Shown here one piece after another: positions 17,670-36,285 of a stretch of 52,420 nucleotides of DNA. Source of the DNA: an uncultured Lentisphaerota bacterium. Its GTDB lineage: Bacteria; Verrucomicrobiota; Kiritimatiellia; RFP12; UBA1067. Both the position numbers and the translations under genes were made by a program. The notes beneath the pieces were generated by a model. The model saw nothing but the letters and a program-made list of their open reading frames with translations, had not been told where the DNA came from and searched no databases. Numbering within the stretch: position 1 is the stretch's first letter; each line of letters opens with the position of its first letter. The DNA is taken from NCBI GenBank assembly GCA_900320225.1, contig ONRL01000006.1, forward strand, positions 1 through 52,420, given 5' to 3'.

Positions 17670-18428
17670 TCATCTAAGCCCCCACTCCGACGGGCTGCTC
17701 CTTGTCTTGAGGTCCCTCTGCACGTCTCGCGGCAGTTTGGTGAAGAACTTGAGTCCCGTCTCCTCCTCCACCTTGCCTACCGTGCAGACGAACCTCTTGA
17801 TGTCGTCGCCCATGGCGTCGTGCGGGACGATGAAGCCGATCATCTTCGGCCTTGTCCCCTCGCTGTAGACAACCTTGTAGAACTTGCTCGCGACCGACAT
17901 CTCTCCAAGCTTGCGCCCTCCTGACGCAGGAAATATGGGGCCGGTCACGACGACGATGGAACCCTCTTCGTATGCGAATCTGCGAACCTGCCACTCAAGG
18001 CGCTTCCATATTCCGCGGTTGAACGACTGTGACTGCGGGCTCATGTTGGACATGTAGAAGCTCTCGCTTTCGGTCTTCGCGGAATAGCGCATGTCCTCGG
18101 CTGGCGCCAGATGGCCCTTGTCGTAACCGCTCTTCGAGTAGTCGCGCATGTCGGAAATAGTCGCCGGCAGCTGCGGGTCCGGGCGGAAGTCGTTCGTGCG
18201 GGCAACCTTCTCAGCGCTTAAGACCTGCTTGCCCGTAAGACGGTACTGCACCCACTTTGCCTGATGGTGCTTCTTCGAATATCCAAGCGCGTACCCTTCG
18301 CGTTCTATGACGACATCCGCCCGTCCTGGATTCCCCACGTCCAGGTGGTTCGCCGAATACGAATGCCCTGCCGTCAACACGGCAATCATCGCCGTTATCA
18401 GAATTCTTTTCACCATTACCGTCTGCAT
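17670..18428 (-). CDS. Secreted DNA/RNA non-specific endonuclease
   Basis: A 252-residue exported nuclease of the beta-beta-alpha metal (Serratia/NucA) family, which cuts single- and double-stranded DNA and RNA. A signal peptide covers about 1-26. The DRGH-type motif reads YDKGHLAPAEDM with catalytic His106; the metal-binding Asn is Asn137 in SFNRGIWKRLE. VVVTGPIFP and FYKVVY are further family landmarks. In the motif, Arg is replaced by Lys (DKGH), which is tolerated in some members. It could provide nucleotides by degrading outside DNA, or act in conflict; its place beside a restriction region is suggestive only. AGGAG precedes the ATG. Confidence 0.9.
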   Translation of the reverse strand: MQTVMVKRILITAMIAVLTAGHSYSANHLDVGNPGRADVVIEREGYALGYSKKHHQAKWVQYRLTGKQVLSAEKVARTNDFRPDPQLPATISDMRDYSKSGYDKGHLAPAEDMRYSAKTESESFYMSNMSPQSQSFNRGIWKRLEWQVRRFAYEEGSIVVVTGPIFPASGGRKLGEMSVASKFYKVVYSEGTRPKMIGFIVPHDAMGDDIKRFVCTVGKVEEETGLKFFTKLPRDVQRDLKTRSSPSEWGLR

Positions 18429-18453
18429 TTCGTTTCTCCTGTTTCAACATGGG

Positions 18454-18522
18454 CTACGCGCGATGATGAGCGCCGCGGTCAACCCCGGTCTGCCCGCCGG
18501 ATATGATCTTGGATATCAGCAT
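18454..18522 (-). pseudogene. Remnant of SLOG/molybdenum-carrier-like gene, copy 1
   Basis: Reads [18 protein letters not shown] then HHRA and stop. [13 protein letters not shown] is the N-terminal nucleotide-binding signature of the putative molybdenum-carrier (SLOG superfamily) proteins, which are normally 150 or more residues. Bases 18470-18522 are identical over 53 bp to copy 2 at 20778-20830. The context upstream of the ATG, a degenerate palindrome ctatgggggcagacccaatag, also resembles copy 2. Confidence 0.7.
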
Positions 18523-18580
18523 CTGATCTTATACTATTGGGTCTGCCCCCATAGCCCCTCAACAACCATCATCATCCGCT

Positions 18581-20647
18581 TCATCTTCTTGTTCCTTCTT
18601 TGCTTTCTGTCAAAACAGTTGCTGACCCTTTTATTCCCAGATCGTCTAGTGTCAATTCCGACAACATTTCGGCCGTCAAGGGCGCGACACCGGAAAGACG
18701 AACTGCCTGTCGCTGTATTGTTTTCTCAAACAGGTTACGCACATAGCGCCCGTTTCCGAAATTCCTATCCTTTCCTGCAACTGCATGCTCAATGATCTGC
18801 ACAATGGAGTTTCGAACGTCTTGGTTACAGGTATATTGATTCTTTTCTGTCAATCGCAAGAACATACTTGCCAATTCTTCCGCTGTATAATCTGGGAAAC
18901 CTATGTATCGATTAAAGCGCGACTGGAGACCTGGATTAGAATCAATGAAATCTTTCATCTCCTCGGTATAACCAGCGAGTACTACCACAAGCCGATCTCT
19001 GTCATCTTCCATGCGCTTCAACAATGTTGAGATGGCCTCTCGCCCGAAATCCTTGTCACCTCCTTGCACAAGAGAATATGCCTCGTCAATAAAGAGTATG
19101 CCGTCAAGTGCTTGATCGATAATCTTGTTTGTCTTAACGGCGGTTTGTCCTATATATTCGGCGACAAGTCCCGACCTATCTGTTTCAACCAATTGTCCCT
19201 TCTTGACCACTCCCATTTCACGATAAATGTCAGCAAGAATACGTGCCACGGTAGTCTTCCCCGTACCGGGGTTCCCCGTGAAAACACAGTGGTAAGAGAT
19301 GGGAGACACCTTTAAACCGACTTGTTTGCGCTTTAGCTGAACCCGAATAAAGTCTGTGAGGTCTCGTACTGTTTTCTTCACTGGTTCAAGTCCAACAAGT
19401 TCATCGAGGGACTGTAAAACGGATTCGAGTGCTTTACGGCCATTGTTTCTTCCAAGGTCTTCAGTAGAAGTATCCGCTCCCTTTGCAGGATTGCCTGATT
19501 GACTTTCGTCGTCGAAACTGGGGATTTCATATCTGGGTTTTGACGATGGATCCTCTCTACTTCCTATCACTCTTACATTACTACCGTCGGAGACATCGTT
19601 GAGCTTCATGATAAATGCAAGAGTTTCACTCTCTTTGGCAGTCACAGTTCCGTCGGCCTTAGCCACAAGCGACGCCCAACGATACAATAATGTGGAAAAA
19701 CGTTGTACCCTTTCCCGTTCAGAATTGACTTTACCGAAAATAACCGCAAAACGAAAATCATCTGGATGTCTTTCAATGTCAATATTCAATTTGGCATTTA
19801 GATCAAAATCAGCTATGCGCCGAGACAACCTCATTGCCAAATCCCGATTATAAAATCGCGTCAGGTTAAAATTCTTACTTATAAGCAAACAGGCAATCAT
19901 CGCGAACCCCACACCCTCTAAATTGTAGAGATCCGTTGTCGAATGGCCCAATCTTCTAAAGCAATCACGAATGTCACAATATACGATCGCTGCCAAGCGC
20001 CTATTGATTGTAAAGATGTTTTCACCCACATCCAGAGCTTCAAGACCCGACAAGGCATTCACCTGATTACGACATCGAGTGCTCCGGTTCATTTCCTTCA
20101 GGAAGTTATATAAAGCCTGCGAAGCAAGTGCAAGTTCCTTTACATAAGTATCCCAACGCTCACCGGTCTTTATAGGAGTTGACGGCGATTTCGACACATA
20201 TCTCTTACTTGCGTCCAGCTTACATGCAGCCATCTTACTTGCTGCCGCCTTATCGTCGGCCAAGAAATACCAGGAACAAAAAGAGAGCAGTAACGTCATC
20301 ACAATACCAATTATGCAAGCTACCATGAATACTAGAGCAATCTGAGAGTGTTGGTCTTTGTAAAAGGGGAAAGCGATCAAAGCACCAATGCCAAACAAAA
20401 GGCAAAGAAGAATCGAAATAAGAACGTTCTTCCCTCCTCCAAAGCCATTGCACATAGTAGAACCTCCTGAGTATTTCTTTTCGTAACGAATTCCAGTTCC
20501 AGGAATTCCAACACTTGATCGCACGCCGTGCGGACCAATAGTCGTTCTCGCACCACGTGGTCCGAAAGAGACACTTGTGCCTCGCTTGCCCCAATTGAGC
20601 GTCACACCTGGCGCAATCTTAATTCGTTTATAAAAGCGAAATCTCAT
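18581..20647 (-). CDS. DUF4236 - two TM - TerB-like - AAA+ (CbxX/SpoVK-type) ATPase
   Basis: A 688-residue multidomain protein. Residues 1-58 are a DUF4236 domain (MRFRFYKRIKIAPGVTLNWG, GPHGVRSSVGIPGTG). Two membrane helices lie at about 74-95 and 103-127. Residues 160-315 are helical and unrecognised. Residues about 320-350 (LVAKADGTVTAKESETLAFI) look like part of a TerB domain. Residues about 410-670 are a CbxX/CfqX-class AAA+ ATPase: Walker A GNPGTGKTT 458-466, Walker B GILFIDEAY 516-524, LAGY 557-560 and the Arg-rich LQSRFNRYI. Such ATPases remodel proteins. The combination suggests a membrane-tethered remodelling machine, perhaps for stress or defence; the function is inference. The gene is AT-rich and flanked by two copies of a SLOG remnant. 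Confidence 0.85.
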   Translation of the reverse strand: MRFRFYKRIKIAPGVTLNWGKRGTSVSFGPRGARTTIGPHGVRSSVGIPGTGIRYEKKYSGGSTMCNGFGGGKNVLISILLCLLFGIGALIAFPFYKDQHSQIALVFMVACIIGIVMTLLLSFCSWYFLADDKAAASKMAACKLDASKRYVSKSPSTPIKTGERWDTYVKELALASQALYNFLKEMNRSTRCRNQVNALSGLEALDVGENIFTINRRLAAIVYCDIRDCFRRLGHSTTDLYNLEGVGFAMIACLLISKNFNLTRFYNRDLAMRLSRRIADFDLNAKLNIDIERHPDDFRFAVIFGKVNSERERVQRFSTLLYRWASLVAKADGTVTAKESETLAFIMKLNDVSDGSNVRVIGSREDPSSKPRYEIPSFDDESQSGNPAKGADTSTEDLGRNNGRKALESVLQSLDELVGLEPVKKTVRDLTDFIRVQLKRKQVGLKVSPISYHCVFTGNPGTGKTTVARILADIYREMGVVKKGQLVETDRSGLVAEYIGQTAVKTNKIIDQALDGILFIDEAYSLVQGGDKDFGREAISTLLKRMEDDRDRLVVVLAGYTEEMKDFIDSNPGLQSRFNRYIGFPDYTAEELASMFLRLTEKNQYTCNQDVRNSIVQIIEHAVAGKDRNFGNGRYVRNLFEKTIQRQAVRLSGVAPLTAEMLSELTLDDLGIKGSATVLTESKEGTRR

Positions 20648-20662
20648 TATATGCCCTCTCCC

Positions 20663-20830
20663 CTACGCCGCGTAAAGTTGTTGCTGGATGTTGCTGAAGA
20701 AGCCGAGCGCGTCGGCGAGACGACCTTTCGGGATCAGCCCGCCATACGGGAAACCGAGCTCCAGCGCGGCCTCAATCGCGCCGCGGTCAACCCCGGTCTG
20801 CCCGCCGGATATGATCTTGGATATCAGCAT
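20663..20830 (-). pseudogene. Remnant of SLOG/molybdenum-carrier-like gene, copy 2
   Basis: A 55-codon frame beginning [18 protein letters not shown] and continuing [17 protein letters not shown], matching the first 40 residues of putative molybdenum-carrier proteins (SLOG superfamily). After RLAD it switches to [14 protein letters not shown] and stops, which does not look like the family, so the rest of the gene has been lost or replaced. The first 53 bases are identical to copy 1 at 18470-18522. It could be expressed as a short peptide, but truncation is the simpler reading. Confidence 0.68.
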
Positions 20831-20841
20831 TCTAATCTCAC

Positions 20842-20861
20842 TATGGGGTCAGACCCCATAG
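20842..20861. repeat. Palindrome tatggggtcagaccccata at a gene end
   Basis: tatggggtc-a-gacccata-type inverted repeat, with 9-base arms. It contains the stop codon of the zinc-ribbon gene and lies 12 bases before the ATG of SLOG remnant 2. A degenerate copy is at 18535-18555 before remnant 1. Palindromes of this kind occur near REP-type mobile sequences, but no transposase is seen here. Confidence 0.65.
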
Positions 20862-21223
20862 TCCTCCAATCCATATTGTGTCGACGGGCGCGATTCCTTT
20901 TGACAACCTCGTACAATACAAAAACCTAACACTACAAAAACCACCAAAAACACTATAAAGCCTTTAAAAGCAGCCCAGAACCCTTCTCGCTTGTCGATAA
21001 TCGTAGCACATATAACCCCAACAAGGCCGGCCCAGAATCCCATCCAGAAATCATTATACGTATTAACAGGTTGTTGACGCTGTGATGTGCCTCCTAGATA
21101 GGTTGTGCTAGGCGAATGATCGACTGGCCTCTTTTCAGGTTCTGGCGATGGCAATGTGCGTCCACATGACCAACAGGTTTTGGCATTGGACTGATTTGGT
21201 GTTTTACAGTGCGGACATGTCAT
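20849..21223 (-). CDS. Zinc-ribbon membrane protein
   Basis: A 124-residue protein. The N-terminus is a zinc ribbon, MTCPHCKTPN followed by CWSCG (two CxxC pairs: C3, C6, C17, C20). A polar linker follows, then one or two hydrophobic segments: about 60-76 (FWMGFWAGLVGVICATI) and 85-105 (FWAAFKGFIVFLVVFVVLGF). Zinc-ribbon/TM proteins of this layout are common and mostly uncharacterised. Its stop codon lies in the palindrome described above. It is 18 bases downstream of the HARE-HTH/T5orf172 gene and likely cotranscribed with the restriction system. Confidence 0.8.
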   Translation of the reverse strand: MTCPHCKTPNQSNAKTCWSCGRTLPSPEPEKRPVDHSPSTTYLGGTSQRQQPVNTYNDFWMGFWAGLVGVICATIIDKREGFWAAFKGFIVFLVVFVVLGFCIVRGCQKESRPSTQYGLEDYGV

Positions 21224-21241
21224 GACTTTTTCCCTTCTACA

Positions 21242-22180
21242 TCACAATGGATTCCGAGCACAAGCCCAGTCAATCACGAAATCGTTTTGATCGAACTTGA
21301 CGCCCGCATCATCAAGCAAACTGCGCCACTTACTGTTCTGATGGCACGGTCTGCGGACCTTGCTGCCGACAGGAGCGAAATATTGAAGGACGCCGCCGAA
21401 CGCGCCCTCGTTGCCGCCACGGCGGGCAATCAACTTTGCTAGCTGCGTCTTGCCGGACCATGACGTGCCGCCTGTCTTGGCCGCCTTGGATTTGGACTTG
21501 GGCTCGGGAACATCGCGCTTGATCGGCTTGACGACCACTTCTTGTCCAGGGACATGAAACCACCTATCATCAGGATCAAGCACGGCTGAAACATCCGTCA
21601 ATATCTCCAGCGCTTCCTGTGGCTTTATCTTGTAGAACTCGCGCTTCTCGCTCACCCGCTTGCGCGTAAGCTTCGTGAGGATGCGATGCACCAGTTCCTC
21701 CACCTGCGCGTACTTGCTCGTCTTCAAGGAAGCAAACTCAACGAACTCCGTGGGGATGGCGGTGTTGTAGAGCTCCTTCGAACGCGTATTCACGGGACGG
21801 CGCGTCTTTCCAATCTTCACCATGCCCTTCAAACTTGGATTGGTAAGGATGTAGACGTACCCCGTGCCCACTGTCGCGGCACTTCCAGATGTAGCTGATG
21901 CCGGTTTCGACTTCATGCCCTCCACGTAGTCAAAGAGCGTCGGCTCCTCTGGGCGATCTGTGGGCATACCCACCAACGCGAAAGTCGCTCGTCCCGTCTT
22001 AACGAACGTCGTGCCGCCATTTTTAATGTGCATGTATATCGCCGAACCTACGGACGCCGAAGGCGTCTTTGACTCGGGCACCCAGAGTCCAGCGTCAACC
22101 ATGCGCCGTGTAAGGACGTCAACGCCCAACGGGCCACCCGCCTCTCTCAAAACCTTTTCTGCCGCATCGAGAATAGTCAT
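21242..22180 (-). CDS. HARE-HTH plus T5orf172 (GIY-YIG) protein
   Basis: A 312-residue protein with two recognisable domains. Residues 3-71 form a HARE-HTH winged helix (LREAGGPLGVDVLTRRMVDAG, SVGSAIYMHIKNGG, FALVG), a domain linked to DNA modification and restriction. Residues 107-195 form a T5orf172/MUG113 GIY-YIG nuclease: GYVYIL 107-112, VKIGKT 121-126, Glu162/His165 and EFY 181-183. The remaining 100 residues hold a conserved-looking SGKTQLAKLIARRGG segment without clear family. It starts 24 bases after hsdR, so it is an accessory gene of the type I restriction locus, perhaps an added nuclease or modification reader; that role is inference. Confidence 0.85.
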   Translation of the reverse strand: MTILDAAEKVLREAGGPLGVDVLTRRMVDAGLWVPESKTPSASVGSAIYMHIKNGGTTFVKTGRATFALVGMPTDRPEEPTLFDYVEGMKSKPASATSGSAATVGTGYVYILTNPSLKGMVKIGKTRRPVNTRSKELYNTAIPTEFVEFASLKTSKYAQVEELVHRILTKLTRKRVSEKREFYKIKPQEALEILTDVSAVLDPDDRWFHVPGQEVVVKPIKRDVPEPKSKSKAAKTGGTSWSGKTQLAKLIARRGGNEGAFGGVLQYFAPVGSKVRRPCHQNSKWRSLLDDAGVKFDQNDFVIDWACARNPL

Positions 22181-22204: not shown

Positions 22205-25200
22205 TTACGCCGCCTGTTGGCCGGTGATTGCGTTCAGACGGGCGATGATTTCCTGCAGCTGACTGATGCGGCCATCGAAAAGGCTTCCGATGTCGTAGTC
22301 GGCGAACGGCTCCTCGTTGGTGAGGTCTTCGGGGGTGACCTCGCCGTTCTCGCGCAGATAGTTGATGATTTCCCGCACGAACTCCTGCTGTGCCTGGTTG
22401 AGCGTGCCGCCGGAAAGGAACTCCCCGAACTTCTCCTGCACGGCATCTTCGTCGATGTCCACGAGCGAACGCACGAATCCCGGCAACGTCCCTTTGTAAT
22501 GCTCTGCCTCGTACTGCTCGCGCGTGCCCAGCACCTCCCAGAGGATGCGCTCTAGTTCATGCATGTCGGCGGCTGCTATCGGCTCCAGCTTGCGAATCTT
22601 CTCCACCACGGGACTCGTCGCGTTCTCGGCCAGATAATCAATCACCTTCTCGCGGTAGGTGCGAATGTCCAACGTTCCGCTGGGTGCCGGCTTCTCCGTT
22701 GTCGAGTCCGCGATGTGCAGCGTCACGATGCCCACGCCGTCCGTCGTGAGATAGACCATCAACCCACGCACGGCCTGATGAAGCTCCTCCACCTTCTCCA
22801 GTTCGGCATGTTCCCAGAATGACGGCGACTCTAACGTCTCCAGTTCGCGCCGTTTCGCAACTACCGCCGCGATCGTACCCAGCTTCATCAGCTGATTGGC
22901 CACCTTCCGCACCTTCCCCACCTCTTCTGACGCGCCCGCAACCGATCCGGTTTCGGCAAGCGACAGCTCGATGGTTGTCATGTGCACGTCGAACAGCTTC
23001 ACCAACTCGTGTTCGGATTGCAGGTCCTCCACAAGCGGCGTAATGTAATGGTCGATCTCCTTCACGCGCTCCGGCGTGAGCGTCAGCCAGTCATCCGTCG
23101 TCTTGTAATTGTCAAGATGCGGCATCGCCTTGCGCACCGCGATGCGCGCGTGCTGCTTCCGCAAATACGCCACCTGCGCCTCCACCGCCGCGCTCAGCGC
23201 CTTACGGTAGTCGGCGCGCCACGGGACAGACTGGTGCGCAACATCCTGCAACGCGAGCATGAGTTTCACGCGCAGCGAAAACAGCCTCTGCGACACGGAC
23301 AGCGCCACCTTGGAATCGTCCTCGCCTTCGCCGCCCGCTCCGAAATACTCGAAGTTCCCGCAGTAGTCAAAGCACAGGAAATGCTCCTTGTTCAACCCCG
23401 GACCGAACACGTCCGGCGCAAGACGCGTCCCTCGACCGAGCATCTGGAAGAACTTGATCTTCGAACGCACCTTCTTGAAGAAGACGAGGTTCAGCACCTC
23501 CGGCACGTCCACGCCCGTATCAAGCATATCCACCGAAACCGCAACGCGGAACTCGCGTTTATTCTTAAAATCGTCAATAAGACCCTTGCTGAATTTCACC
23601 TGGTTGTCGATGAGCTGGCAATAGTCCGCACCCAGGTGTGGATAGAGCGCGTGGAACCGCTGCACGATCATAAGCGCGTGCTTGTGGTTGTACGCGAAGA
23701 TGATGGTCTTGCCCAGCAGCTCTCCGCTCTCGACCTTCTGCCCTTCTGCCATCAGCTTTTCAAGAACGCGGTCGCACGTGGGCGTGTTGTACACGGCGCG
23801 GAATATCTTCTCGTTCCCCACCTCGTCGGGACGACTGTCGTATCCCGCCGCATCGAATCCCTCCTCGTAGTCCTCCTTCTCGGCGGCGGAAAGGTCGTCG
23901 TAGCGGATGCCGTCGCGCAGGACGGATGTGGTGTAGTTCTTCAACTTCCACCCGACAAGATAATGTTCGTTCCGCCCCTGCTCCATCGTGTACTCGAAGT
24001 TCGGCACGCCGATGTGGCACTCGAATATCTTGTACGTGTTGGCGTCCACTTCGTCGCGGGGCGTGGCCGTGAGTCCCACGAGCAGAGAGTCGAAGTACTC
24101 GAAAATCGTGCCGTACTTGTTGAAGATGGAACGGTGCGCCTCGTCCGTGATGATGAGGTCGAAACGACCGATCCCGAAACGCTTCTTCTCCGCGTCGATG
24201 GCGTGGATCATCGTCTGGTACGTGGACATCACGATCCGCGCTGTGTCGGGGTTGCCCGTGTCCTTCTTGTCGGAGAGGACCGCAAGCGACATCGACGGCA
24301 GCAGCTTCACGAACGTCTTCTTTGCTTGATCCACAAGCTCCGTCCTGTCCGCGAGGAACAGCACATGCTCCACCCAGTCGTTCCGGCTCAACACGTCAAC
24401 GAGCGACACCGCAACGCGCGTCTTGCCCGTACCTGTCGCCATCACCAGCAACCCGCGCCGGTGCATTGCGTTGAACCATTCGCACAGCGACGTCACCGCC
24501 GTGATCTGGTACGGACGCCCCGCGATGTCGCGGTCGATCTTGAAATCATGTATCGGCTTGCGCTTGCGGCGGAACAGCAGCCCCTCCAGCTCCTCGCGCG
24601 TGTGGTACGCGCACAGCGGCCGGTCGGGATAGATGCCGTCGATGCACCAGAGCTGATAGCCGTTCGTGTAGTAGAGAACCGGCATCGCGCATCCGTACTG
24701 CGCCACCAGACGCTCCCCGTACAGCTTCACCTGGTGCCGCCCCTTCTCGGGACTCTCCGCCGTGCGCTTCGCCTCCACCACGGCCAACGGAACGCCGTCC
24801 TTCCCGTACAGCACGTAGTCGCAGTAGCCGTCCTGACCGCTCGGCGGCATCCCCGTCACCTTGATCTCCGTGCCCGCCTTGCACGGAACGGGCGTGTTGT
24901 CGGTGCCGACAAGTTCCCATCCCGCTTCACGCAGATAGAGGTCGATGTACTCCTTGCGCGTCTCCGCCTCCGTGAGCGTATGCACGTACGCGAACTCGGA
25001 CGCGCCCGGATTGAGCTTCGCCTGGACAGCGGCAAGGATCGCGGACGCCTTTTCGACCGCCGCCCACGCGGCGTTCTTCGTGATGTGCTTCTCGTGCAGC
25101 GCGTGTGAGCCGAGAACGCGCACGTAGTCGAACGCCGACGCAAGATTGTTCTCGCGCACGAGGTTGCCCACCGCCCGACCGCCCATCCGCTCAAGGAACG

Positions 25201-25351
25201 AATCGCCCTCCGGCAATTCCTCGTTCGCCGCACGGTACAGAAGAACCATCGCCTCCATCACGACGGCATACGCCGTGGACGCGACCGTGAACACGTCACG
25301 CTCGTTTCCACACGCCGTCAGCCGGTCAATCAGCTCTTCCACATTTCTCAT
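22205..25351 (-). CDS. hsdR: Type I restriction endonuclease subunit R
   Basis: The motor and nuclease subunit of a type I restriction enzyme, which translocates and cuts unmodified foreign DNA. In 1048 residues: an N-terminal helical DUF4145-like region (1-110); the HsdR nuclease with Asp178 (CDYVLYG) and Glu193-x-Lys195 (VVEAKR); a superfamily 2 helicase with Walker A ATGTGKT 305-311, DEAH 403-406 and TATPR 428-432; then helicase motif LDTGVDVPEVLNLVF and the C-terminal EcoEI_R-type region. It appears intact. GGAG precedes the ATG. It follows hsdS and a small membrane protein. Confidence 0.95.
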   Translation of the reverse strand: MRNVEELIDRLTACGNERDVFTVASTAYAVVMEAMVLLYRAANEELPEGDSFLERMGGRAVGNLVRENNLASAFDYVRVLGSHALHEKHITKNAAWAAVEKASAILAAVQAKLNPGASEFAYVHTLTEAETRKEYIDLYLREAGWELVGTDNTPVPCKAGTEIKVTGMPPSGQDGYCDYVLYGKDGVPLAVVEAKRTAESPEKGRHQVKLYGERLVAQYGCAMPVLYYTNGYQLWCIDGIYPDRPLCAYHTREELEGLLFRRKRKPIHDFKIDRDIAGRPYQITAVTSLCEWFNAMHRRGLLVMATGTGKTRVAVSLVDVLSRNDWVEHVLFLADRTELVDQAKKTFVKLLPSMSLAVLSDKKDTGNPDTARIVMSTYQTMIHAIDAEKKRFGIGRFDLIITDEAHRSIFNKYGTIFEYFDSLLVGLTATPRDEVDANTYKIFECHIGVPNFEYTMEQGRNEHYLVGWKLKNYTTSVLRDGIRYDDLSAAEKEDYEEGFDAAGYDSRPDEVGNEKIFRAVYNTPTCDRVLEKLMAEGQKVESGELLGKTIIFAYNHKHALMIVQRFHALYPHLGADYCQLIDNQVKFSKGLIDDFKNKREFRVAVSVDMLDTGVDVPEVLNLVFFKKVRSKIKFFQMLGRGTRLAPDVFGPGLNKEHFLCFDYCGNFEYFGAGGEGEDDSKVALSVSQRLFSLRVKLMLALQDVAHQSVPWRADYRKALSAAVEAQVAYLRKQHARIAVRKAMPHLDNYKTTDDWLTLTPERVKEIDHYITPLVEDLQSEHELVKLFDVHMTTIELSLAETGSVAGASEEVGKVRKVANQLMKLGTIAAVVAKRRELETLESPSFWEHAELEKVEELHQAVRGLMVYLTTDGVGIVTLHIADSTTEKPAPSGTLDIRTYREKVIDYLAENATSPVVEKIRKLEPIAAADMHELERILWEVLGTREQYEAEHYKGTLPGFVRSLVDIDEDAVQEKFGEFLSGGTLNQAQQEFVREIINYLRENGEVTPEDLTNEEPFADYDIGSLFDGRISQLQEIIARLNAITGQQAA

Positions 25352-25376
25352 CCGAAATACTCCTAAAACAACTAAA

Positions 25377-25619
25377 CTATTCCTCGTGAGATATTTTGAA
25401 CTTACGTTGAAGTGTTTTTGCGTTGGGATAATCTATACGATACTCACCATCATAGACCACGCCCGTGTTTTTATCCAAAACCCCAGTGGTCGCATTACGA
25501 GCATTTGATGACGCATGGTGAATATACTGATAACGATCTTTATTGTACCAGCAGAAAATCCAAACTGACAAAAGTAAAACCGCGCTTACCAACATCACGA
25601 TTATGGTTGTCTTGCTCAC
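25377..25619 (-). CDS. Small membrane protein within the restriction operon
   Basis: An 80-residue protein starting with GTG; GGAGG lies 6 bases upstream. It has one N-terminal membrane helix (about 5-24, IIVMLVSAVLLLSVWIFCWY) and a soluble tail with VVYDGEYRIDYPNAK. No family recognised. It sits between hsdS and hsdR, 13 bases from hsdS and 25 from hsdR, in the same direction. It could be a regulator or an unrelated passenger. Confidence 0.6.
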   Translation of the reverse strand: MSKTTIIVMLVSAVLLLSVWIFCWYNKDRYQYIHHASSNARNATTGVLDKNTGVVYDGEYRIDYPNAKTLQRKFKISHEE

Positions 25620-25632
25620 TGTAAAACCTCCT

Positions 25633-26784
25633 TCATCCGAAATACTCCTGTAGCTTCGACCGATAGAGAACCTCCAACTGCCCTACCGTCTTTCGCACGC
25701 TCAACGCCAATTTGTCGACCTTCTCCACAAACGCCGCGAACTCGCGCTGGAGGGCGAGGGGGGGCAAATAGAATCGGAGAGATCGAATTGCCTCAAAGTT
25801 TAGCCCCGCTTTAACCGCACTCTGATTCTTTTTCTCAAACTGCGCCTTACCCGCCGCTGACTCAAGGTAAAATGCTACGAACAACGGTTCAACGCTCTTT
25901 CGATCAAGACGAACACAGGAAAGATGCTGGTTAATATATGCGCCTTGATCGGCCAAATCCCGCGTAACAATTCCCGTTCTTCCAAGGTCAGCGGTTATGC
26001 TAATCAGCAAATCGCCCTCTTGAACGCGAGTACGTTCTGCCTCTGCGCCGGTTGGCGGTTTAACATGCTGCACGTCATTTGTAGAAATCTTCCCTCCTTT
26101 AACATTCTTGATGGTGATAAACAACTCGCCATCATCCGCATAATATTTAGCCCAACCACGCGATCCAGAAGTGAGGAACTGCAAATGGCCACCTATCTTC
26201 GCCATTGGCCACCCTTTGGGGTTGGTTATTGGATCCCCAAACATCTCCACAAACCGCGATTTGACGAGGAGGTCAAGTTTCGCAAGGCGCGTCTCGGCGT
26301 TCTTCTTCAACTCGCAAATCCTGTCAAGCGTCGCCGCTATCCGCTTCTGCTCGGGGAGTGGTGGGAGATTTATTCTCCGATTCTTAAAATCCTTGAAGTA
26401 CAAATGTGGAATTGTTGCACCGGTATATAGCGTACCAAGGTTTTGCTTAACAAGGGCATAATATAAAAAACCACAATCAACTCTCGATTGGGGACGAATA
26501 ATCATAACCGTGCCAATTACAGATGAAAACGGTGGAAGGCGCATCACACGCCCGACTCCCGCACCATCTTTAACCACACCAAGTCCTTGAACATCAATCT
26601 GATAAAAATCAACGTTTTTAATTAGACCAGAAGCACCATAAATTGGGAAAGTCCCTGAATTGTTCTCTACATCCTTTTGCCGAAGTTGAGAAGTACTTGC
26701 CGAACACACCTCCCACAGCCGCACCTTCTCTGCGGTCTCTGCGTTTTTGCGACTCTGCGTTAAGCTCTTCCCCATCACCGCCAT
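25633..26784 (-). CDS. hsdS: Type I restriction specificity subunit S
   Basis: Gives the type I enzyme its two-part recognition sequence. The 383-residue protein has two target recognition domains (about 20-140 and 190-335), each followed by a conserved helical spacer: LPPLPEQKRIAATLDRICEL at about 145 and LPPLALQREFAAFVEKVDKL near 340. The ATG overlaps the hsdM stop by one base (TAATG), so translation is coupled. Composition is AT-richer in the recognition domains, as usual for this fast-evolving gene. Confidence 0.93.
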   Translation of the reverse strand: MAVMGKSLTQSRKNAETAEKVRLWEVCSASTSQLRQKDVENNSGTFPIYGASGLIKNVDFYQIDVQGLGVVKDGAGVGRVMRLPPFSSVIGTVMIIRPQSRVDCGFLYYALVKQNLGTLYTGATIPHLYFKDFKNRRINLPPLPEQKRIAATLDRICELKKNAETRLAKLDLLVKSRFVEMFGDPITNPKGWPMAKIGGHLQFLTSGSRGWAKYYADDGELFITIKNVKGGKISTNDVQHVKPPTGAEAERTRVQEGDLLISITADLGRTGIVTRDLADQGAYINQHLSCVRLDRKSVEPLFVAFYLESAAGKAQFEKKNQSAVKAGLNFEAIRSLRFYLPPLALQREFAAFVEKVDKLALSVRKTVGQLEVLYRSKLQEYFG

Positions 26785-28277
26785 TACAGCATCCCCTTAA
26801 GCGCCTTGAGACCCGCCACAAAATCCTTCGTCAGCGTCTCAACTTCGCTCACCAACTCCGCCGTCGGCAGGAACTCCTCGGCCACGTACTCCACCTCGCG
26901 GTACTTGTTGAACGAGAGGTCGTAGTTGTTCGCCACGATTTCGTCCTTCGGCACGAAGAAGCACTTGCCCTTCCTGTCGGCGGGCTTCTCCGCATCGCGC
27001 GCCTTAAACTTCGCGACCACGTCGGGGATGTCGTTCTCCTTCACGACCTCGCGCTTGTCATCGAGCGAGAAACCGTCCGCCTCCATGTTGTAGAACCACA
27101 CGTTGTCCGTGCCGCCGTGGTCCGTCTTGACGAAGACGAGGATTGCCGTCGCCACGCCCGAATACGGCTTGAACACGCCCGACGGCATGGAGATGACCGC
27201 GACGAGCCGCTGCCGGTCCACGAGTTCCTTCCGCACGCCCACATGCGCCTTGGACGAACCGAACAAAACGCCCTGCGGCACGATCGACGCGCACCGTCCG
27301 CCGATTTTCAGGAGCCGCGTGAAGAGCGCAAGGAAAAGAAGCTCCGTCTTCTTCGTGCTGGCAACGGCGAGGAGGTCGGGGGCGATGGCGATTTCCGTCA
27401 TGTTCCCCGCGAAAGGCGGATTCGTGAGGCAGAGCGTGTAGTCCGCGCGCTTCGCCGCGTCAGGTTCGATGGAGTTATTGAGGCGGATGTCCGGCGCCTC
27501 CACGCCGTGCAGCATCATGTTCATCGCGCCGATGCGGAGCATCTTCTTGTCGATGTCGAAGCCGGTGAACATCGTCGTCTTGAAATGCTCCATCCGCTTC
27601 TTGTTCGTGAGCTCCTTCGCGTAGTGCGAGGTGACGTACCGCGCCGCGCCCGCGAGGAAGCCAGCCGTGCCCATCGCGGGGTCGAGGATGCGGTCGTCGA
27701 GCGTGGGCTCCATCAGCTCAACCATCATTCCGATGATGTGGCCGGGCGAGCGGAACTGGCCGTTCTCGCCGGACGACTTGATGCGGTCGAGCAGGTCCTC
27801 GTACACGTCGCCCATCACGTCCTTGCCTGAAAGCTGCATCGCCTCGATCTCCGCCACGGCAACGGCAAGCACCTTCGGCTTGTGAATCTCGAACTGCGCG
27901 TCCACCATGTAGCGGCTGAAAGCGCTGTCGCGCCCCGAGCCGAGAGACTTCACGAACGGGAACACGAAATTGCGCACGATGCGGTGCATCTCGTCCGGCG
28001 CCTTGTGGCGGAAGTTCTGCCAGCGCAAATCCGCGTAAGGGATCTCCACGCGCGGGTCTTCGCTCACAACGCAAAGACCTTGCTTGAAAACAGGATCCTT
28101 CAACGTCGTGTGGAGAAGGTTCGCGTTACGCTCCTGTACGATCTGGTTGTCGTCCAGCAACTTCATGAAGATGAGGAACGTGATCTGCTCCACGACGGTG
28201 AGCGGATTCGTCGTTTCGTTCGCCCAGAACGTGTTCCAGATTCGGTCAATAGAGCTTCTTATTTCAGCCGACAGCAT
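26784..28277 (-). CDS. hsdM: Type I restriction DNA methyltransferase subunit M
   Basis: N6-adenine methyltransferase of the type I system, protecting host DNA. In 497 residues: an N-terminal HsdM helical domain (about 1-145), SAM-binding motif I DPAMGTAGFL at 199-208, and catalytic motif IV NPPF at 286-289. Later landmarks are RCASIVPQGVLFGSS and FYNMEADGFSLDDKR. First gene of the restriction operon; the gap to the upstream nuclease gene is only 22 bases, and no separate promoter is obvious. Confidence 0.95.
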   Translation of the reverse strand: MLSAEIRSSIDRIWNTFWANETTNPLTVVEQITFLIFMKLLDDNQIVQERNANLLHTTLKDPVFKQGLCVVSEDPRVEIPYADLRWQNFRHKAPDEMHRIVRNFVFPFVKSLGSGRDSAFSRYMVDAQFEIHKPKVLAVAVAEIEAMQLSGKDVMGDVYEDLLDRIKSSGENGQFRSPGHIIGMMVELMEPTLDDRILDPAMGTAGFLAGAARYVTSHYAKELTNKKRMEHFKTTMFTGFDIDKKMLRIGAMNMMLHGVEAPDIRLNNSIEPDAAKRADYTLCLTNPPFAGNMTEIAIAPDLLAVASTKKTELLFLALFTRLLKIGGRCASIVPQGVLFGSSKAHVGVRKELVDRQRLVAVISMPSGVFKPYSGVATAILVFVKTDHGGTDNVWFYNMEADGFSLDDKREVVKENDIPDVVAKFKARDAEKPADRKGKCFFVPKDEIVANNYDLSFNKYREVEYVAEEFLPTAELVSEVETLTKDFVAGLKALKGML

Positions 28278-28299: not shown

Positions 28300-29106
28300 T
28301 TATCCTCCGCACTTGCCGCAGCGCTCGCCCTCGTTTTTCTGGCAGGGGTAGCCGCGCGTCTTGCGGTAGTTCTCGCAGTTGCGGTTGTGGCGTTTGTTTG
28401 AGTTGGTCGAGAGCCAGTATCCGGTGTCGGGCCAGGTGGCGTTGACGGGCGCGGGCGTGCGCGCGGAGACGGGGAGCGTACGGCCGGCGTGGTATTCGAC
28501 GCGGCCGGGGGCGGCGGACGGCGATGGAACGCCGTGGCGGAATTGCTCGGGAGGGATGGGATTGAGACCGGCCCAGAGGCCGCGACGAGCGGCGCGGGCG
28601 GCGGATTCGGCCTGCGCGTAGGCAGGCGTGGAGTCAAAGCGCTTGTAGTGCCAGGCGTAGCCCGCCTTGAGCATTTCGAGGTTGACTTCTTCGCCGTTGG
28701 CGTAGACCGTTCCGAGGATGCGGTTGTATTTGTCACGCTTGCCCCACGCTACGCGCACCTCTTTTCCCGCGACGAGACCGGAGAGGTAGCGCCCGGCGGC
28801 ATCACCGTAAGCTTGGTTCTTTTCTGGCGCGTCGATTCCCTGGAGGCGGATTTTGTGTTGCGTTTTGGAAGAGTCAAGGATGGTGATCGTGTCACCGTCG
28901 GCCACCTTCACGACACGGCCGATGAGGTCGGAAGACGACAGACGGACGGACGGCTTGCCGTCGCACGCCGTGACCAATGACAACGCCGCCACGACCGCCA
29001 GGAAAATGGCGTTTTTGAAACGGCAAAAGAGCCACGCTTTTATCCGATTTTCTTTCACTTTGACATGCGATTTCAAGGGGAAACTTTCCATCACATTTTT
29101 GCGCAT
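28300..29106 (-). CDS. Exported staphylococcal-type nuclease, probable lipoprotein
   Basis: A 268-residue thermonuclease-family protein (Ca-dependent cleavage of DNA and RNA). A hydrophobic segment ends at a lipobox-like VTAC with Cys48, preceded by an unusually long basic N-region, so the start could also be the ATG five codons later. The SNase fold spans about 60-175; active-site residues match Arg88, Asp92/Glu95 (RLQGIDAPE) and Arg129 (KYNRILG). The tail (231-268) has His240, Cys244, Cys255, Cys263 and Cys266, a likely metal site. Residues about 190-200 (RHGVPSPSA) come from a palindromic repeat in frame. A run of ten G lies on the coding strand just upstream of the ATG. Confidence 0.87.
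   Translation of the reverse strand: MRKNVMESFPLKSHVKVKENRIKAWLFCRFKNAIFLAVVAALSLVTACDGKPSVRLSSSDLIGRVVKVADGDTITILDSSKTQHKIRLQGIDAPEKNQAYGDAAGRYLSGLVAGKEVRVAWGKRDKYNRILGTVYANGEEVNLEMLKAGYAWHYKRFDSTPAYAQAESAARAARRGLWAGLNPIPPEQFRHGVPSPSAAPGRVEYHAGRTLPVSARTPAPVNATWPDTGYWLSTNSNKRHNRNCENYRKTRGYPCQKNEGERCGKCGG
28505..28535. repeat. Palindromic repeat inside the nuclease gene
   Basis: cggcggacggcgatggaacg followed by ccgt: the same unit as intergenic copies at 12686, 14672 and 15249. Read on the coding strand it gives HGVPSPSAA in the linker between the nuclease domain and the Cys-rich tail. Confidence 0.75.
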
Positions 29107-29173: not shown

Positions 29174-29201
29174 TTGCGGCGCGTCGGCGTTTTGATATAC
29201 T
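29174..29201 (+). promoter_or_regulatory. Promoter of the hairpin RNA
   Basis: TTGCGG (29174-29179), 16 bases, then TGA-TATACT with the hexamer at 29196-29201. Expected start is near 29208. Confidence 0.6.
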
Positions 29202-29207
29202 ACCGCC

Positions 29208-29353
29208 GACAGTTTCGTGTATCCCTGATCCGTTGAGCAAATCCGCCAAGACCATGCCAACAGCGGACTGGGCAGGTACGCGCCACCTGGCGCGGCCTGT
29301 CCGTGTCAGTTGGCTGGTCTTGGCGGATTTGCTCTGGCACGGGCAGGCCTTTT
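29208..29353 (+). ncRNA. Candidate structured RNA: one long hairpin with own promoter
   Basis: Bases 29235-29261 and 29309-29334 pair over 26 bp with one bulged T. Outside them CCTG/CAGG and CCGT/ACGG extend the helix to 29224-29347. Inside, GGGCAGG (29270-29276) pairs with CCTGTCC, and CGCGCC with GGCGCG closes the tip. The helix is followed by ccttttag, a weak terminator-like U-run. The whole 146-base unit therefore looks like a free-standing transcript. It lacks the SRP RNA tip motifs and is shorter than typical 6S RNA. It may instead be a leader of the gene at 29386 or a small inverted-repeat element. Confidence 0.5.
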
Positions 29354-29385
29354 AGAGGAAGAGCAGGAGATTAGCAGGGATCCCC

Positions 29386-30093
29386 GTGAAAATCGGCGGC
29401 GTATACATTCTCTCGCGCAGGAGCATTGCGCGCATGCTCGCGACCATTTCGGCCGCGCTCATGATGCTTTACGCCGCCGCGACCGCCCCGGTCGAGGGCA
29501 TGGTCCGCCGGATCCACGACGTGGCGGGGGGCCTTCTCTCGCTCGACCGTCAGATGGTCGGCCGCCTCATGCGCACCGTCGTGCCCGATATTCTTTATCT
29601 GGAGTACAAGTCGCTGTATCTGGAGGTGAAGGCGTCCGGGGCGGCGGTCGCGGGGCGACCGCCCTACCATTCGGCTCGGCGGGACGCCTCGCCCCACCAC
29701 GGGAGGGTCGCGCTCCTGCGCGACCGCCGCCAAGATGGCGGCTCTCCATGCGGGAGGCTCGCCGAGGACGGCTCGCCCCACCATGCGGCTGTGACGGTGG
29801 AGGACATTCAGAGGGCGGTCGAGGAGATGAAGCAGACGGTGCGCACGGCCAAGCGCGAGATCATCAAGGACGCGCACACCGCGCGCACGAGTGAGGCGGA
29901 TCGGCGCGTGCCCACGGGCGAGCGTGCGCGGCAGATCGGCAACGTGCGCAAGATCGTGCGCGAGGCGCGCGCCGCCGGCAAGCGGATGTCAATTCTCCGC
30001 GCCTGCCGCAAGGCGTGGCAGGACGTCAAGGGCGGCTATCCTTCCCCCGAGGCGCTTTACGACTACTGCCACAGCCATCGCGCGGAGTTCTAG
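29386..30093 (+). CDS. Unknown protein with repeat-derived insert
   Basis: A 235-residue frame starting with GTG; an ATG at 29434 is an alternative, since the ribosome-binding site (GCAGGGA) is weak. Residues about 15-33 are hydrophobic (RMLATISAALMMLYAAATAP). Residues about 85-135 are encoded by four to five palindromic repeats read in frame ([19 protein letters not shown] and similar), low in plausibility as native protein. From about 143 the protein is basic and helical (EDIQRAVEEMKQTVRTAKRE), ending ACRKAWQDVKGGYPSPEALY, which looks like a nucleic-acid-binding or helical tail. No family recognised. It lies directly downstream of the hairpin RNA candidate. Confidence 0.6.
   Translation: MKIGGVYILSRRSIARMLATISAALMMLYAAATAPVEGMVRRIHDVAGGLLSLDRQMVGRLMRTVVPDILYLEYKSLYLEVKASGAAVAGRPPYHSARRDASPHHGRVALLRDRRQDGGSPCGRLAEDGSPHHAAVTVEDIQRAVEEMKQTVRTAKREIIKDAHTARTSEADRRVPTGERARQIGNVRKIVREARAAGKRMSILRACRKAWQDVKGGYPSPEALYDYCHSHRAEF
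29640..29790. repeat. Repeat cluster inside a coding frame
   Basis: Contains ctcggcgggacgcctcgccc (29673), gggagggtcgcgctcctg (29701), ccgccaagatggcggctctc (29727) and a second ctcgccccaccatgcgg unit (29780). All are recognisable from intergenic clusters elsewhere in the window. Together they add about 50 codons to the gene at 29386 without a stop. Confidence 0.75.
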
Positions 30094-35948: not shown

Positions 35949-36056
35949 GTGGCTAGTGGTTAGTGGCTAGTGGTTAGTATCGCCGCCAAGATGGCGGCTC
36001 TCCATATGGGGTGCCGCCATCTTGACGGCGGCCGCGCGGGAGCGCGGCCCTCCCTA
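35947..36056. repeat. Short tandem repeat and palindromic repeats
   Basis: gtggctagtggtta occurs twice in tandem (35949-35976). Then come gccgccaagatggcggctct (35981), its inverted form ccgccatcttgacggcgg (36013) and ccgcgcgggagcgcggccct (36031). Confidence 0.7.
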
Positions 36057-36148
36057 GGAGGGGGGTGCCGTCTCCCTAGAACGAGAGGGCGTTCTCCCTA
36101 GAACGGGGGTGCGTCCTCCCTAGGACTAGGGTGCGACCTCCCTAGGAC
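36051..36148. repeat. Four tandem copies of a 22-bp unit
   Basis: Each unit starts TCCCTAG: 36051-36072, 36073-36094, 36095-36116, 36117-36138, plus a partial TCCCTAGGAC at 36139-36148. Units are similar but not identical at the other positions. No spacers, so not a CRISPR array. Confidence 0.8.
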
Positions 36149-36184
36149 GTACAAAACGATTTCCCCTTCGCGGGTGCGAAGGTG

Positions 36185-36285
36185 GAATGACGCGGACGCA
36201 ACAAGTTGCGTCCCTCCCCTTGTGACCGCCGCCAAGATGGCGGCTCTCCATGCGGGAGGGGCACAACTTGTTGTGCCCGCACAAC
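36185..36285. repeat. Palindromic repeats before the HU-like gene
   Basis: gacgcaacaagttgcgtccc (36195), gccgccaagatggcggctct (36227) and gcacaacttgttgtgcccgc (36259). All belong to the window-wide repeat set. No gene fits in 35949-36313 otherwise. Confidence 0.75.

Follow-up and report, generated by a model that had tools for sequence, protein, structure and literature searches.

Bacteria have several described elements that the locus analysed here resembles. 6S RNA (RF00013) is a single rod-like hairpin RNA with its own promoter, and the bacterial small SRP RNA (RF00169) is a hairpin of about 100-140 nt. Retron msr-msd and other defence-system RNAs share the order of promoter, long hairpin and then gene, placed in a defence region, while attenuators and terminator leaders consist of a promoter, a strong hairpin, a short U run and a gene within ~40 nt. 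Integron attC sites are long imperfect palindromes beside exchangeable genes. Variable nuclease and restriction regions have yielded defence RNAs, namely retrons and type III toxin-antitoxin RNAs.

The window, a stretch of 52,420 nt from an uncultured, gut-type Lentisphaerota bacterium (genome G000), carries a long hairpin with likenesses to all of these. Compared with 6S RNA, the hairpin is without a large central bubble, has no match to the model and occurs in few strains; compared with the small SRP RNA, it has no family match and is not universal in its genus. In contrast to a retron, the hairpin has no recognisable reverse transcriptase gene among the scanned neighbours in the two genomes that carry it, and it is followed by a different gene in each, neither matching a PADLOC family. 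It differs from attenuators in that the U run comprises only four residues, the downstream gene is not conserved and no leader peptide is common to both genomes. The core-site layout of attC (5′ RYYYAAC, 3′ GTTRRRY) is also absent, as the 5′ end of the hairpin has GTTGAGC, the opposite layout, and the element is single copy and forms no array. A literature search returned nothing specific to the hairpin.

Folding of the + strand showed that the 124 bases at 29224-29347 form a stem of 53 pairs, four of which are G-U, with a 5′ half (29224-29284), a 4-nt terminal loop (29285-29288) and a 3′ half (29289-29347). The 20-nt arms 29235-29254 and 29315-29334 show 100% complementarity, and among the inverted repeats listed for the window at a spacing of up to 150, none with perfect complementarity is longer; U29255 is then bulged once, and pairing resumes as far as 29261/29309. 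The arms, the one bulge and the 29224-29347 extent given in the original prediction were therefore all borne out by the fold and the inverted-repeat scan. The folding energy of the hairpin was -91 to -95 kcal/mol, and the minimum free energy of 29200-29360 was -94.8 kcal/mol compared to -58.9 ± 4.0 in 200 dinucleotide shuffles, none of which was equally stable (z -8.9). The hairpin is real and unusually stable. The reverse strand folds less well (-83.4, z -6.6), yet it does fold, which favours the + strand and leaves a role at the DNA level compatible with folding.

DNA searches of 16 genomes of the genus, 115 of the family and 162 of the order, together with a covariance-model search of the family, recovered only one relative, G009:C108:10697-10859. 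The hairpin is thus carried by two genomes, both among the 16 of the genus and the 162 of the order; the weak DNA-search matches elsewhere were 17-36 bases long. The pattern TTGGCGGATTTGCTCTGGC gave 18 matches in genome contigs, one of which is the relative itself, and the others, in unrelated taxa and not each inspected, are taken as chance. A dispersed repeat or MITE was ruled out by the single copy in the 5.2-Mb genome. A phage or plasmid element was also rejected, as blastn against 50,697 records of phages and 72,556 of plasmids gave no match and no viral contig had the conserved ends of the hairpin.

Conservation was analysed pairwise between G000 and G009, the one second sequence. The result showed that the DNA from the -10 box to TTTTAGA (29191-29356) is 93% identical compared to ~82% (81.9%) for the adjacent staphylococcal-nuclease (SNase)-like gene, and the intergenic DNA ahead of the -10 box is 83.5% identical with many gaps. 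The differences cluster in the 5′ arm (82.9% identical; 29235-29276 drifts in G009, at 83%), next to a segment, 29191-29234, that is 97.7% identical. In the loop, the 3′ arm and the tail, all aligned bases are identical (100%): the terminal loop is invariant, the 3′ half is invariant bar one indel at 29315, and 29274-29355 holds just one indel. Homology between the two genomes ends after TTTTAGA. At the level of sequence, a function is supported by the limits of the identity in the non-coding DNA, with the -10 box at one end and the U run at the other.

The original prediction had placed a promoter, TTGCGG-16-TATACT, ahead of the hairpin, and the two halves of this claim fared differently. An extended -10 element, TGATATACT (29193-29201, + strand), in which TG at 29193-29194 precedes TATACT at 29196-29201, is present and is conserved in G009 as TGCTATACT. 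The possible -35, TTGCGG (29174-29179, + strand), lies 16 nt upstream of TATACT and is not conserved in G009. With up to one mismatch allowed, TGNTATACTNCCGCC had 25 matches in G000 compared to 4 for its reversed control, suggesting that this extended -10 probably represents a true promoter core; the sequence TGnTATACT is enriched in G000 and kept in G009. The promoter is absent from the list produced by a consensus promoter scan. Judged from the position of the -10, transcription would start near 29208, within a conserved 5′ segment (29202-29223, + strand) that belongs to the 97.7% identical stretch. A 19-base segment identical to 29191-29209, with the extended -10 promoter, is also found in G011 and G009 (L059 1501-1620; L074 60-185), where another leader and gene follow it.

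The other end of the candidate transcript is a conserved tail, CCTTTTAGA (29348-29356, + strand), with a weak terminator-like U run, at which the G009 homology ends. The U run, in CCTTTTAG, has four T only and begins two bases beyond the stem, so that no terminator was listed at the hairpin end by the terminator scan; the GC-rich stem followed directly by ~5 or more U of an intrinsic terminator or attenuator is not found here. CCTTTTAG is a weak terminator at best, and of the terminator-like end proposed originally, the conserved U-run tail held up while a proper terminator did not.

The explanation that we favour, tentatively and at slightly under even confidence, is that of a transcribed hairpin restricted to a few strains of one lineage: a short, probably regulatory RNA whose termination leaks, so that it would also be the leader of whatever gene follows. 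The extended -10 promoter would start a + strand transcript near 29208, which would fold into one long hairpin (29224-29347), and at the hairpin base (CCTTTTAG) the majority of transcripts would be terminated, paused or cleaved to give a stable RNA of ~140 nt, in which the invariant 3′ arm might be the functional strand. Read-through would express whichever gene lies downstream. The hairpin would then accompany the SNase gene in a variable defence region, as a short RNA gene or as a leader that can be exchanged, and would not be a switch dedicated to the gene at 29386. This explanation is favoured by a + strand that folds the better and far outside the shuffles, and by a -10 element that is kept in G009 and whose motif is enriched. 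It is also favoured by the 93% identical block that stops at TTTTAGA, by three isolated stem substitutions that all preserve pairing, by the likely use of this promoter for the next gene in G009, and by downstream genes that are unrelated and whose relatives are without the hairpin. Against it stand the comparison of two sequences only, the short U run, the unconserved -35, a GACCAT to AAAAA change that breaks pairs, and a stretch of the SNase gene that is nearly as conserved, so that the conservation of the hairpin is not unique. If the hairpin is transcribed, its product would be an RNA that no Rfam family covers and that is linked to a variable region of nuclease and restriction genes; with two examples, it is a lead rather than a discovery.

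A dedicated cis-acting 5′ leader of the downstream gene, whether an attenuator, an RNase III site or an mRNA stabiliser, is possible but doubtful, and the genomic context bears on it directly. Both genomes place the hairpin upstream of, and divergent from, an SNase-like gene with an apparent lipoprotein signal (28300-29106, - strand; PF00565, E 7e-25), which adjoins a type I restriction-modification operon, identified by Pfam in the window as hsdR, hsdS and hsdM (22205-28277, - strand). The operons differ: G009 has another type I hsdM/hsdS pair in the corresponding position, and the hsdM product is 497 aa in the window and 505 aa in G009. Both genomes also have a same-strand gene that starts within ~40 nt of the hairpin, as a leader would require. 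However, these genes are unrelated: that of the window (29386-30093, + strand) encodes 235 aa as called, has relatives in G009, G015 and G011 and has no Pfam match, whereas that of G009 encodes 486 aa and is followed by a DUF3987 primase/helicase-like gene. Searches of Pfam, PADLOC and PHROG gave no convincing match for either gene, and the relatives of both elsewhere have no such hairpin upstream, which weakens the earlier proposal that the hairpin is the leader of the gene at 29386.

The start of the downstream gene bears on the same question. In the window, the gene may actually begin at ATG 29434, which follows AGGAG, and a TATACA box at ~29401 precedes this ATG, suggesting that the gene may have its own promoter, which counts against a dedicated leader. 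In G009, no -10-like hexamer was found between the hairpin and the next gene, implying that this gene is probably read from the promoter ahead of the hairpin, as a leader would be. Two associations were rejected: the hairpin does not travel with the downstream genes, whose relatives elsewhere are without it, and it does not always accompany the SNase gene, since an SNase relative in G011 is without it.

It is unlikely that the hairpin works as a DNA-level element, that is, a palindrome for a recombinase or replication protein or the boundary of a defence cassette, acting as double- or single-stranded DNA with no need of transcription. Such an element would account for the end of G000/G009 homology at the hairpin foot and for folding on both strands. 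It would also suit the surroundings of the restriction-modification/SNase/hairpin block, which sits among different core genes in the two genomes: the outer core genes are a queuine tRNA-ribosyltransferase and a seryl-tRNA synthetase in the window and elongation factor G in G009, implying that the block probably moves within a variable defence region. A serine-recombinase-like gene, recognised by eye, lies directly upstream of a close SNase relative in G011:C140 (L022; 794-1396), a neighbourhood that would fit a recombination site and in which the hairpin is absent. On the other side, no recombinase was recognised among the scanned neighbouring genes of either hairpin-bearing genome, the element is single copy without the attC core layout, and a promoter-like -10 is conserved within the block. 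Beside the restriction-modification operon, the genes at 17670-22180 encode a DNA/RNA non-specific endonuclease, an AAA ATPase with DUF4236 and a HARE-HTH/T5orf172 protein, a set that points to a more extensive defence or mobile region.

The detailed comparison of the two stems bears on a further possibility, which we consider quite improbable: that the hairpin is an inverted duplication with no function, kept by chance or through a recent exchange between strains. Three isolated stem substitutions preserve pairing on the + strand (A-U to G-U, U-G to C-G and C-G to U-G), but three of three pairs kept is not significant, as a random transition keeps a pair 36 of 53 times. The GACCAT to AAAAA change in G009 disrupts a run of pairs, and in this single relative four paired positions are broken by the substitution cluster together with an indel. 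The pair A29254-T29315 is gained or lost on both sides together, and this change, like the more perfect arms in G000, could reflect quasipalindrome-templated mutation. The original prediction was to be checked by compensatory changes in relatives; the comparison with the one relative contains no two-sided compensatory substitution, so that selection on the structure is unproven. Furthermore, the SNase gene has an 80-column stretch that is 97.5% identical and a 55-base identical run, compared to 98.75% and 41 bases for the hairpin, indicating that high identity alone is no proof of function. A chance survival would also agree with carriage by only two of 162 genomes. It accords poorly with conservation that runs from the -10 box to the U run, and with differences confined largely to the 5′ arm while 29274-29355 has a single indel. 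A conserved small ORF through the hairpin was rejected, since the 5′-arm indels and the one at 29315 put the two genomes in different reading frames.

A more specific form of the transcribed hairpin, a new hairpin RNA working in a mobile defence region, whose invariant 3′ arm would act in trans or bind a protein while the downstream effector is exchanged, appears decidedly improbable. Rfam searches found no family at gathering score anywhere in the window and, at E 1, none at the hairpin, the only match being an implausible microRNA at 29433-29514 on the other strand; the absence of any Rfam family that the original prediction anticipated was thereby confirmed. The hairpin matches neither the RF00013 nor the RF00169 model, in line with the earlier statement that it is not 6S or SRP RNA. 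The one 6S match of G000 lies on another contig, C159 (41 bits, somewhat below the cut-off of 46.4), and 17 of the 21 genomes searched have one match each, so the hairpin is not 6S. A diverged 6S or SRP RNA is extremely unlikely: the size and rod shape of the hairpin fit, and the small SRP RNA was not found in G000 among the 150 of 311 candidates scored, but a housekeeping RNA would not be limited to two of 16 genomes of its genus, the 6S match lies elsewhere and no Rfam model matches here at E 1.

The gene at 29386 also contains GC-rich dispersed repeats (such as GACCGCCGCCAAGATGGCGGCTCTCC and GGCGGGACGCCTCGCCCCACCA), which occur at 29650-29790, in frame inside this gene, and elsewhere, at 35981-36280. 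Translated matches similar to these repeats were found in many relatives.
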